Assembly (NCBI GenBank): GCA_026983675.1
Contig: JALSTP010000184.1
Coordinates: forward strand, 1 to 35,040
Direction of reading: 5' to 3'
DNA length: 35,040 nt
Source: Sedimenticola sp.
Lineage (GTDB): Bacteria > Pseudomonadota > Gammaproteobacteria > Chromatiales > Chromatiaceae
Both the position numbers and the translations under genes were made by a program. The number at the start of each line of letters is the position of its first letter. Position 1 is the stretch's first letter. Shown here piece after piece: positions 1 to 31,784 of this stretch. The notes under the pieces are model-generated. The model made no database searches. It worked only from the letters and a program-made list of their open reading frames with translations, and was not told where the DNA came from.

Positions 1-126
1 AGACTGCGTTGCCCCATCTTGCTGTAGGGTGGCTACAGCGGCGATGGGGCGCCTTGCTGCGAACCGGCACGCCACGGCTGAATACGATATATATTGTTGC
101 CGGGTTAATAACCCGGCAACAATATA
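1..126. repeat. Right part of a small inverted-repeat element, plus an abutting inverted end
   Basis: Bases 51-110 match 31725-31784 at 55 of 60 positions, so this is a second copy of the element described at 31664-31784. Its right terminal repeat (91-110) is followed at once by an inverted copy, giving a near-perfect 37-nt palindrome at 90-126 with a single central base (108). Bases 11-50 hold a separate nested hairpin: GCCCCATC (11-18) pairs with GATGGGGC (43-50), and GCTGTA (21-26) with TACAGC (34-39). That hairpin could also be the terminator of a gene left of the window. The left end of this copy is not visible here. Confidence 0.75.
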
Positions 127-5353: not shown

Positions 5354-6268
5354 TCAACCGCCCTCTTCGATACCCCCAAACGTCTCCACCAGACTGGCCA
5401 GAAAACGGTCGAGTTCCAGCGTCATCAAGGCAAACTCGGCATCGAATCGCGCCGCTTCGTCCTCCGCACCGCTCTCCGCGGCCTCTTCGAGCATCAAATC
5501 GGGAAACCTCAGGCGCTTGACCGATAGATCCTCGTCGAGCATGCAAGTGATTCGCTCGTTCCACTCCACCGCCAACTTGACCACCTGCTTGCCGGCGTCC
5601 AGGTGGGTGCGAATCTCCTCACTCGCCAGCTCCTGATGGCGGCAACGCACAATGGCGCCGCCCTCTTGAGGGGAACGCAGTTCACATTCATCGCCCAACG
5701 CAAATGGAGCACTCTCCATATCGCCATGCACCCAGCGGGTAAACAGGTCCGCCGGGGCGTGTCGGACCTTCAGCGGCTGCACCGGCAGCGAGCCCAGCGT
5801 CTCCCGCAACAGGGTAATCGATTCTTCGGCGCGTTTGGCGCTGGAGGCGTCCACCACCATCCAGTGCTTGCGGGGGTCGATATAGGCATAGAGCCGGCTG
5901 GATCGGGTAAAGGCCTTGGGCAAGAGTTCCTGCTCGATATCGTCACGTTTCTCCCGCCGCTCCCGGCGGCCAGGATCGCGTCCCTCCTCTGTCCGCACCT
6001 TTTCCACCCACTCGTCCACCGCTTCTTTCACCACGACAGAAGGCAGGATGCGTTCCTCACGCCGGGCACAGAGCATCAAGTAGCCGTTGGCCGCATGGAC
6101 CAGCGGGGCGTCGCCCCCCCCGCCCACCGGTGGCGTCCAGCCGAGGGCGGCGTGCTCCAGCGCCCCACAGGGACGCGACACGCGGTCCAGCAAAGCGTCG
6201 TGCAACGCCTCCGGGGGCATATCGAAGGGCTTGGTCAGGCGATAGATCTGTAGATTTCTGAACCACAT
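5354..6268 (-). CDS. rdgC: Recombination-associated protein RdgC
   Basis: Ring-shaped, non-specific DNA-binding protein that limits RecA filament activity; found in Beta- and Gammaproteobacteria. The product begins MWFRNLQIYRLTKPF, the family's near-invariant opening, and is 304 residues long, almost exactly the usual 303. I use the internal ATG at 6268, preceded by GGAG, because the longer frame to 6319 adds 17 residues not seen in the family. Internal features fit: DPRKHWMVVDASSAKRAEE at about 135-153 and ERITCMLDEDLSVKRLRFPDL in the last third. It is convergent with the epimerase gene and appears to be monocistronic. Confidence 0.95.
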   Translation of the reverse strand: MWFRNLQIYRLTKPFDMPPEALHDALLDRVSRPCGALEHAALGWTPPVGGGGDAPLVHAANGYLMLCARREERILPSVVVKEAVDEWVEKVRTEEGRDPGRRERREKRDDIEQELLPKAFTRSSRLYAYIDPRKHWMVVDASSAKRAEESITLLRETLGSLPVQPLKVRHAPADLFTRWVHGDMESAPFALGDECELRSPQEGGAIVRCRHQELASEEIRTHLDAGKQVVKLAVEWNERITCMLDEDLSVKRLRFPDLMLEEAAESGAEDEAARFDAEFALMTLELDRFLASLVETFGGIEEGG

Positions 6269-6458: not shown

Positions 6459-6550
6459 TCAGGACGTCAGACAGAAGTCGGAACGCGGCGCCTCACCACG
6501 CGCCTTCCCGTGGTGGCTGAGGGCGACATAGAGTGTTGCCGGGTTGACAT
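6459..6550. repeat. Probable decayed copy of the inverted-repeat element
   Basis: TCAGGACGTCAGAC (6459-6472) resembles TCAGGACTTCAGAC at 31699-31712, and GAGTGTTGCCGGGTTGACA (6531-6549) resembles the right terminal repeat of the 31664-31784 element, at similar spacing. The part between is only loosely alike and no clear left end is visible. It lies between two minus-strand genes (rdgC start at 6268, AhpD-like stop at 6566). I see no gene in 6269-6565. Confidence 0.45.
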
Positions 6551-9648: not shown

Positions 9649-9692
9649 TTTATTAACCCGGCAACAATATATATTGTTGCCGGGTTAATAAA
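9649..9692. repeat. 44-bp perfect palindrome built from two fused element ends
   Basis: Every base from 9649 to 9670 pairs with 9671 to 9692, with no loop. The left half is the left terminal repeat of the 31664-31784 element and the right half its right terminal repeat, with the interior missing. It lies between the divergent pentapeptide and fliK genes, 27 bp before the fliK start. In RNA it would form a 20-bp or longer hairpin in the fliK leader. Confidence 0.9.
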
Positions 9693-28831: not shown

Positions 28832-28946
28832 ATTCAGGGCTTCAGGCAGGCGCCGGAGGTCAAGGGTCATGATGCCTCCAGTGCATCCATGCACTCGCAA
28901 CACTCACGCCGGAACGCAGGTCCGGCGCCTGCCCGAAGCCCTGAAT
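28832..28946. repeat. Large inverted repeat, possibly related to the dispersed element
   Basis: Arms of 26 bases (28832-28857 and 28921-28946) pair with one mismatch around a 63-base middle. The middle contains its own hairpin (GTGCA/TGCAC around 28880). Bases 28833-28855 match 31699-31721, the interior of the 31664-31784 element, at 20 of 23 positions. It fills most of the 416-bp gap between rplI and dnaB (28594-29009), in which I find no gene. Confidence 0.7.
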
Positions 28947-28961
28947 GCCATATTTATTTAT

Positions 28962-28988
28962 GGCTGCCGGGTCAACACGCCGGCAGCC
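28962..28988 (-). terminator. Hairpin after rplI
   Basis: GGCTGCCGG (28962-28970) pairs perfectly with CCGGCAGCC (28980-28988) around a nine-base loop, 22 bases after the rplI stop on the minus strand. The bases after it (ATAAATAAATAT on the minus strand) are AT-rich but not a T run. Likely end of the rpsF-rplI transcript. Its TGCCGGGT core also resembles the ends of the dispersed element. Confidence 0.55.
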
Positions 28989-30731: not shown

Positions 30732-31145
30732 CTATTCTTCGGGCTGCTCGGTGGTTTTCGCTTCCGGCGCGGATTCCGCGGCCGGCGCCTCCGCAGGTGG
30801 CGCTTCCCGCTGCGTCTCCCTCTCGCTGGGCTCTTTTGCCAACGGGGACGGCCCGGTGATCGCCTCCTCGCGGCGAATCACCAGATTCCGGAGTACTGCA
30901 TCGTTGAAACGGAAGGCACTCTCAAGTTCGGCGAGCGTCTCCGCCCCACACTCGATATTCATCAGCACATAATGCGCCTTGTGGATCTTGTTGATGGGAT
31001 AGGCCAGCTGCCGGCGGCCCCAGTCTTCCAGACGGTGGACCCTGCCCTCACCCTCGGTGATCATCGCGGTATATCGCTCGATCATGGCAGGAACCTGCTC
31101 GCTCTGGTCCGGATGGACCAGAAACACGATTTCGTAGTGTCTCAT
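30732..31145 (-). CDS. rpsF: 30S ribosomal protein bS6
   Basis: Small-subunit protein of 137 residues. [45 protein letters not shown] and [16 protein letters not shown] are standard bS6. The last 35 residues form a Glu/Ala/Pro-rich tail; E. coli bS6 also has an acidic tail, but this one is longer and more proline-rich. ATG 31145 follows AGGGAGAG. First gene of the rpsF-rpsR-DUF2232-rplI run. Confidence 0.97.
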
Positions 31146-31149
31146 TGTC

Positions 31150-31195
31150 TCTCCCTACGGTTAACAGCCTTCCGTTCGAGTACGGTAAGGCAAGG
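31150..31195 (-). promoter_or_regulatory. Possible S6:S18-binding leader of rpsF
   Basis: On the minus strand the rpsF leader folds into a hairpin (31191-31167): GCCTT pairs with AAGGC and CCGT with ACGG, with one bulged A and a six-base loop. It is followed by AACCG and the ribosome site. Many bacteria autoregulate rpsF by an RNA with a CCG motif that binds the S6:S18 dimer; this could be such a leader, but I judge it by eye only. Confidence 0.4.
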
Positions 31196-31315
31196 AGCAC
31201 GGACGTCCTTCACAACGCCCCAGCGGTAAAAGGGCGAAATTCTACATGCGCCCTACTTTACGTTCAAGCCAAATTTGTGCATGCTCTTGGGTTGCACGAT
31301 TTGAGGTCCAGGAAT

Positions 31316-31669
31316 ATGGGTAAATTATTGCGGACATTTTCGACCCTGCTGCCCGCGCTACTGTTGGCGGTTACAGTATCGAGCGACGGAATCGCGGGAG
31401 AAACGGGGCTCGGCATCGGCAAACAGCCTCGGGTCGAGAACCGTTTCAGTCAGGGACATCGACGTGGGGGCTTCTCCGCCTCGCCGCAACGCCCCCGCCG
31501 GGGATCCGACCAGAGCCGGCGCGGAGATCATCCCGATTTCCGGCCGGGACATTATCCCCTCTTCTACCGCCCGGGATACTGGCCCAACATTTACCACCCC
31601 GGTTATTGGCCCTCGTACAACGATCGCCGCCTTCCCGATGACGCCGGGGCGCGCTGGCGTCGATATTAA
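31316..31669 (+). CDS. Small secreted basic protein with PGYWP repeats
   Basis: Unrecognised protein of 117 residues. Residues 1-28 form a signal peptide (basic start, hydrophobic LLPALLLAVTV core, then a DGIAGE cleavage area). The mature part is rich in Arg, Gly and Pro, with two PGYWP units in the sequence RPGYWPNIYHPGYWPSY (about 85-101). Several inner-membrane-exported, Tyr/Trp/Pro-rich proteins of this kind exist in Gammaproteobacteria without known role. ATG 31316 follows AGGA; the frame to 31145 lacks coding character. Its stop codon TAA lies inside the left end of the repeat element at 31664, so the C-terminus may have been set by the insertion. Confidence 0.6.
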   Translation: MGKLLRTFSTLLPALLLAVTVSSDGIAGETGLGIGKQPRVENRFSQGHRRGGFSASPQRPRRGSDQSRRGDHPDFRPGHYPLFYRPGYWPNIYHPGYWPSYNDRRLPDDAGARWRRY

Positions 31670-31784
31670 CCCGGCAACACTATTTATCGTTATCGCAGTC
31701 AGGACTTCAGACGGGCGCCGGGCCGCCTTGTTGCGAACCGGCACACCACGGCTGAATACGTTATATAGTGTTGCCGGGCTAATA
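31664..31784. repeat. 121-bp element with 20-bp terminal inverted repeats (MITE-like)
   Basis: Left end 31664-31683 and right end 31765-31784 are inverted repeats of 20 bp with one mismatch. The 81-bp interior codes for nothing. Its right 60 bases match 51-110 at 55 of 60, and its two ends, fused, give the 44-bp palindrome at 9649-9692. The element lies exactly between two convergent genes, starting inside the stop codon of the small secreted protein and ending 14 bases before the rlmB stop. It is probably a non-autonomous mobile repeat, possibly also used as a two-way terminator. Both ends carry TAATA/TATTA, so a short TA-type target duplication is possible but not provable here. Confidence 0.8.

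Follow-up and report, generated by a model that had tools for sequence, protein, structure and literature searches.

IS630-derived MITEs form a known class of small bacterial repeats, with RUP and Correia as precedents (PMC3049150, PMC2229807, PMC2817692). RUP, a non-coding repeat of 107 bp that accompanies IS630-Spn1 in Streptococcus pneumoniae, has ends resembling those of the resident IS630, a TA target and clusters of nested insertions (PMC3049150, PMC2229807, PMC10969869), all of which it shares with the Sedimenticola MITE described here; however, it has one short interior, and no two-hairpin body recurring between unrelated ends and across many genera is known for it. The Correia (NEMIS) elements of Neisseria are MITEs of ~107 and 155 bp with TA ends and a proposed processing by RNase III, and their variants, in which an internal block of 50 bp is present or absent (PMC2229807), recall the 284- and 335-bp forms of the Sedimenticola element, which differ by 51 bp. 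They occur, however, in another group of organisms and, by description, lack an inverted pair of modules common to elements with other ends; it is on their descriptions that we set both RUP and Correia apart. CIR elements, conserved between Caulobacter and Brucella, likewise have a pair of hairpin arms with a linker between them (PMC2229807) but carry a GANTC motif and no such terminal inverted repeat, whereas in the Sedimenticola MITE both arms lie within a terminal stem. ISY100 and other bacterial IS630/Tc1-mariner elements, on which the mechanism proposed for the MITE is modelled, move by cut-and-paste at TA with a 2-bp duplication (PMC2170065) but, unlike the MITE, are autonomous and ~1 kb long. 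Finally, Candidatus Thiomargarita nelsonii, a sulfur-oxidising gammaproteobacterium, carries hundreds of MITEs, one of them thought to be IS630-like with TATAG ends (PMC4853749); compared by description, the reported ends differ from those found here. The literature searched (ISfinder and subscription papers were outside the search) held no account of a family with TTAACCC ends, of its module or of a body common to MITEs with unrelated ends, and searching the literature with the module or end strings brought up no bacterial repeat family. Descriptions of bacterial MITEs usually deal with single species and take the ends as the defining feature; here the interior is the conserved part and the ends are the changing part.

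The window analysed, a stretch of 35,040 nt, is an entire contig (C184) of the source genome, a Sedimenticola assembly of 3.08 Mb in 232 contigs. A sequence-only reading of the window had proposed five related sites, and all five proved real when aligned to a 284-bp reference element (L010). The 121-bp copy at 31664-31784 (forward strand) has TA, the target duplication, at each end and corresponds to reference positions 1-52 joined to 214-284; judging from this alignment, it is an internal deletion of the 284-bp element. Its left terminal inverted repeat, beginning TATTAACCCGGCAACACTATTTATCG, occupies 31664-31696 (forward strand; reference 258-284 to 27-1, 96%) and its right one 31752-31784 (reverse strand; reference 1-33 to 121-89, 91%), so that the unit with inverted ends stands as proposed while the end length of 20 bp has to be replaced by 33 bp at 91%. 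The copy noted at 51-110 turned out to span 1-110 (forward strand; reference 175-284, 96%), that is, hairpin module B and the right end of a 284-type copy truncated by the contig start; a covariance model recognizes its module (R1) with 71.7 bits and E 5e-14. It is followed on the same strand by the left-end remnant of an older copy at 106-127, and the junction, GGGTTAATAACCC, fits an insertion of the first copy into a TA within the TTAACCC end of the older one. The fused ends placed at 9649-9692 are a perfect palindrome of 40 bp at 9651-9690 (no strand assigned), i.e., two ends joined without an interior. The two weaker relatives are decayed copies, both on the forward strand: at 6459-6550 one right end of an old copy is kept (6515-6549, 86% over 29 bp), and at 28832-28988 the arms of module A and the right end remain (28832-28977) with the left end lost, the hairpin pieces matching the reference at 100% over 26 bp and 90% over 31 bp. 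As a separate observation, a reading frame at 31145-31669 stops at a TAA made by the TATTAA end of the 121-bp element, and the insertion may have supplied the stop codon; this frame has no Pfam match and is possibly not a gene.

The family is indeed spread genome-wide, as had been predicted from the five sites. A 22-mer end motif (≤3 mismatches) matched the source genome 185 times in forward and 182 times in reverse orientation, and a 24-mer (≤3 mismatches) 168 and 172 times, while the reversed pattern used as a control had 0 matches in the same genome. The elements are short and non-coding, have terminal inverted repeats and are numerous (367 ends), the features by which IS630-derived MITEs are recognized. 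Among 68 paired copies read from selected stretches, sizes ranged from 38 to 376 bp, with 284 bp (12 copies), 335 bp (11) and 245 bp (7) the most common; the 284-bp copies of the source genome share a mean identity of 96.9%, and nine of the 40-bp palindromes consisting of two ends only were found. Four loci with end pairs 2-4.6 kb apart (L086, L121, L123 and L143) were considered as transposase carriers and rejected, the sequence between the ends being ordinary genes separating distinct elements. A spaced-end pattern gave no match in the genome contigs, in which the plain end pattern did match.

The element begins with TTAACCCGGCAA (the outer 12 bases), located between TA dinucleotides. Aligned copies show a sharp edge, with TA at 95-97% outside TTAACCC, then TTAACCCGGCAACA, and beyond the TA the flank preference is mild (T 63%, A/G, T). 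One copy of the source genome (C130:9586-9869) interrupts an ammonium-transporter gene as TTTGCAAT-TA-[284 bp]-TA-TTACACCC. A single TA at this junction restores the frame (...MTFA-II-TPAL..., reading FAIITPAL), and with it PF00909 spans the junction over 232 residues (E 3.5e-68). Further, two elements of a sister genome (G029) are missing from another (G217) in a region that is 94% identical: GTTAC-TA-[...]-TA-GTGG corresponds to the empty site GTTACTGGTGG, and CCACATA-TA-[...]-TA-AGATG to CCACATTATAAGATG, both empty sites being one base off the exact prediction (TG or TTATA where TA is expected). At the second locus, a third genome (G216) carries a 287-bp element within the end of an older remnant. 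The interrupted gene and the two empty sites show that the MITE inserts at TA with a 2-bp duplication; target duplications, which the sequence-only reading had left for the flanks to decide, are therefore present at filled as well as empty sites. Nested insertions are frequent, and their junctions (GGGTTAATAACCC and GGGTTAATATTAACCC) are what would be expected from insertion at a TA inside or beside the end of another copy. A piggyBac-like TTAA target was considered and rejected since conservation of the TA beyond the TTAA also reaches 95-97% and the empty sites agree with a TA target.

The window contains no transposase, and it had been suggested that the family relies on one encoded elsewhere. 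This suggestion is borne out by IS630 elements with the same ends in relatives and by fragments in the same genome. Specifically, a Chromatiales MAG (JALSHD, locus L189) carries an intact IS630 transposase of 341 aa (NF033545, E 5.9e-67; PF13358, E 1.4e-40) between TA-flanked copies of TATTAACCCGGCAATAAAGAAT (the far side closes ...GAAC) that are 1,095 bp apart, both TA counted. Homologues at 70-84% identity in genomes of the same order have ends ~1.1 kb apart, with both ends present in three genomes (G136, G174 and G129) and one end in a fourth (G207). In relatives, intact IS630 elements of ~1.09 kb thus have outer ends that match the 12 bases opening the MITE, TTAACCCGGCAA, and a comparison with the ends of full-length transposons, proposed earlier, gives identity over the first 12-14 bases at both ends of the element with the 341-aa transposase. 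Further inward, the ends of the MITE differ from those of IS630 (best case 18/20), and the similarity is confined to the outer 14-22 bp. In the source genome, contig C214 holds a 180-residue IS630 piece (88% identity) with its end attached and cut by foreign sequence, and contigs C199 and C192 both break off within a further IS630 with TATTAACCCGGCAATAAAATATTGC, which in C199 directly adjoins a MITE end. The matching transposon is therefore represented in the same genome by fragments with ends, none intact in the assembly: tblastn with the relative's transposase recovered fragments only, and the DDE_3 profile had no match in the source genome. Mobilization of the MITE by IS630 in trans is accordingly well supported as a reading of the shared ends; as every IS630 transposase recovered from this assembly is a fragment, the MITE is only possibly mobile in this genome at present. 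Elsewhere in the source genome (contig C26, L252:500-760), a 40-bp palindrome abuts a decayed IS630 transposase fragment that lacks its 5' part; this arrangement may have arisen by deletion within an IS630 copy.

The full element is predicted to fold into a Y shape, with a terminal stem and two hairpins, at energies far below those of shuffled sequences (z = -15.7 as DNA and -16.2 as RNA). When 18 elements were aligned across several genera, base pairing held in 94.1% of 2,004 cells in 112 pairs, 45 of the 112 pairs have double changes, and the double-change cells number 144 vs. 41 when shuffled and 17-29 with partners slid. The hairpin fold is maintained by compensatory change. The two hairpins are paralogous and mutually inverted, each a module of ~83 nt (82-84 nt) in which CAAGGCG (5' side) and AACGC (3' side) surround two variable stems. 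In an alignment of 46 module sequences, 13 of 15 pairs had double changes, with CAAGG and AA invariant. A set of 115 unique modules, read on the strand with CAAGGCG, had 125 G-U and 21 A-C cells, in an alignment that was fitted to the covariance model and with counts that ignore the kinship of the sequences; strand-specific folding of the modules is suggested by this excess, although a hand count on the alignment of 284-bp elements gave similar numbers of G-U and A-C in the B arm. No Rfam family scored above its gathering threshold, and a relaxed threshold gave chance matches only.

The same body was found between at least five very different terminal repeats, all starting with TA and mostly closing on TTCAG. 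The end types include TTAACCCGGC, GTACTCYTTCAA/GTGCTCC, GTGTACTGCG, GTGTCCTGTC, CTAAGRA, GTGGGCCAAG and GTGGTCC, and the total size of the elements is mostly 265-288 bp across them; one MAG (JALSIC, L139) carries both TTAACCC- and CTAAG-ended forms. A second IS630 subgroup, 32-38% identical to that of JALSHD, has CTAAG-like ends, which suggests that the CTAAG-ended type is also linked to IS630; for end types other than TTAACCC, any such link is only a resemblance, and at most for CTAAG. In a survey limited to Gammaproteobacteria, the module covariance model matched 112 of 369 genomes (89 of 272 genera), and the maximum of 12 copies scored per genome was often attained. A single structural model thereby finds elements of which most are unlinked by plain sequence search with the element. 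Viral contigs had no exact module pattern, and plasmid searches returned no full element, only a single module from Azotobacter and another from Pseudomonas. The former, on Azotobacter chroococcum plasmid pAcX50f (L316:520-820), lies between TA-flanked repeats TAGGGTCTGTTGACGTTTTG, which represent another end type. Because the body recurs between unrelated ends and the model matches so many genomes, the family belongs, on this evidence from sequence, to a widespread superfamily of IS630-type MITEs with a conserved body and changing ends. The family proposed from the window alone is thus upheld; the 121-bp unit as a deleted 284-bp element and the body common to elements with unrelated ends go beyond it.

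We conclude with high confidence (about 0.9) that the repeat is a non-autonomous MITE of IS630/Tc1-mariner type, very probably mobilized in trans and probably built on an old core that changes its ends. Under this model, an IS630 transposase acting in trans would bind the shared ends, excise the MITE and paste it at TA (preferably TRTTA/TAAYA), with the ends of copies already present as frequent targets, and internal deletion would afterwards produce the 121-bp and 40-bp forms. The body would be the old MITE core, its ends swapped to follow whichever IS630 transposase is available; this history of trans mobilization and end exchange is what we infer for the hairpin body. The alternative that had been named beside the MITE-like reading, REP/REPIN-type palindromes spread by RAYT or by local DNA processes with no DDE transposase, would account for abundant, palindromic and often intergenic repeats and for the bare 40-bp palindromes. 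Such repeats should show no target duplication and consist of single palindromes without long defined ends, whereas the element has two well-defined ends of ~33 bp, shared with IS630, and a TA duplication that both filled and empty sites display, which makes this origin very improbable; the genome-wide copies, the TA duplication and an IS630 with the same ends all speak for the MITE-like reading instead. Transcription terminators or other convergent hairpins, similarity to which had been named as a refutation, are likewise GC-rich and close to gene ends; nonetheless, the 96.9% mean identity among 284-bp copies, the precise ends and the insertion inside a gene rule them out for practical purposes.

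What maintains the hairpin body is a separate question. The body might have been selected as a folded RNA, for instance in processing, terminating or stabilizing transcripts, with mobility only its vehicle. The loop letters kept among covarying stems, the G-U excess, the preservation of the body while ends differ, and the inverted pair, which puts one sense module on either transcript, would all agree with such a role, but the excess is a lead only given how the alignment was made, the B arm does not repeat it and Rfam offers no match, leaving an RNA function doubtful. Alternatively, the covariation may have arisen by template-switch DNA repair of imperfect palindromes, the fold having no function, and most changes do jump directly between Watson-Crick pairs (the 144 double-change cells). 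However, conservation is highest in the unpaired internal-loop letters (CAAGG does not vary in 46 modules), which counts against template switching because palindrome correction would erase such loops, and module length is constant at 82-84 nt across genera; we therefore regard this explanation as unlikely. A broader proposal, to which we give tentative and less than even odds, is that the inverted hairpin pair is a mobile non-coding cassette, carried by about a third of gammaproteobacterial genomes, that outlives its transposon and has been repeatedly re-housed between unrelated IS630-type ends, its fold being selected on a single strand (RNA or ssDNA). If so, the inverted pair would make the fold independent of the direction of insertion. 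The findings raise testable questions about the use of the hairpins to element or host and about the way in which ends are exchanged.

A few additional observations concern the assemblies themselves. Many contigs of the source genome (G000) begin or finish within a MITE copy, e.g., C184 (1-110), C2, C54, C124, C194 and C231, and the family therefore helps explain the fragmentation into 232 contigs. Exact end motifs also occur in two contigs binned as Bacteroidales and Desulfobacteraceae (L114 and L117), which could be due to transfer or misbinning. Finally, in the sister genus, genome G029 carries a second, unrelated dispersed family of ~157-bp inverted repeats (contig C10; L271:15370-15530 and 5541-5697), for which the orthologous site is empty in G216.
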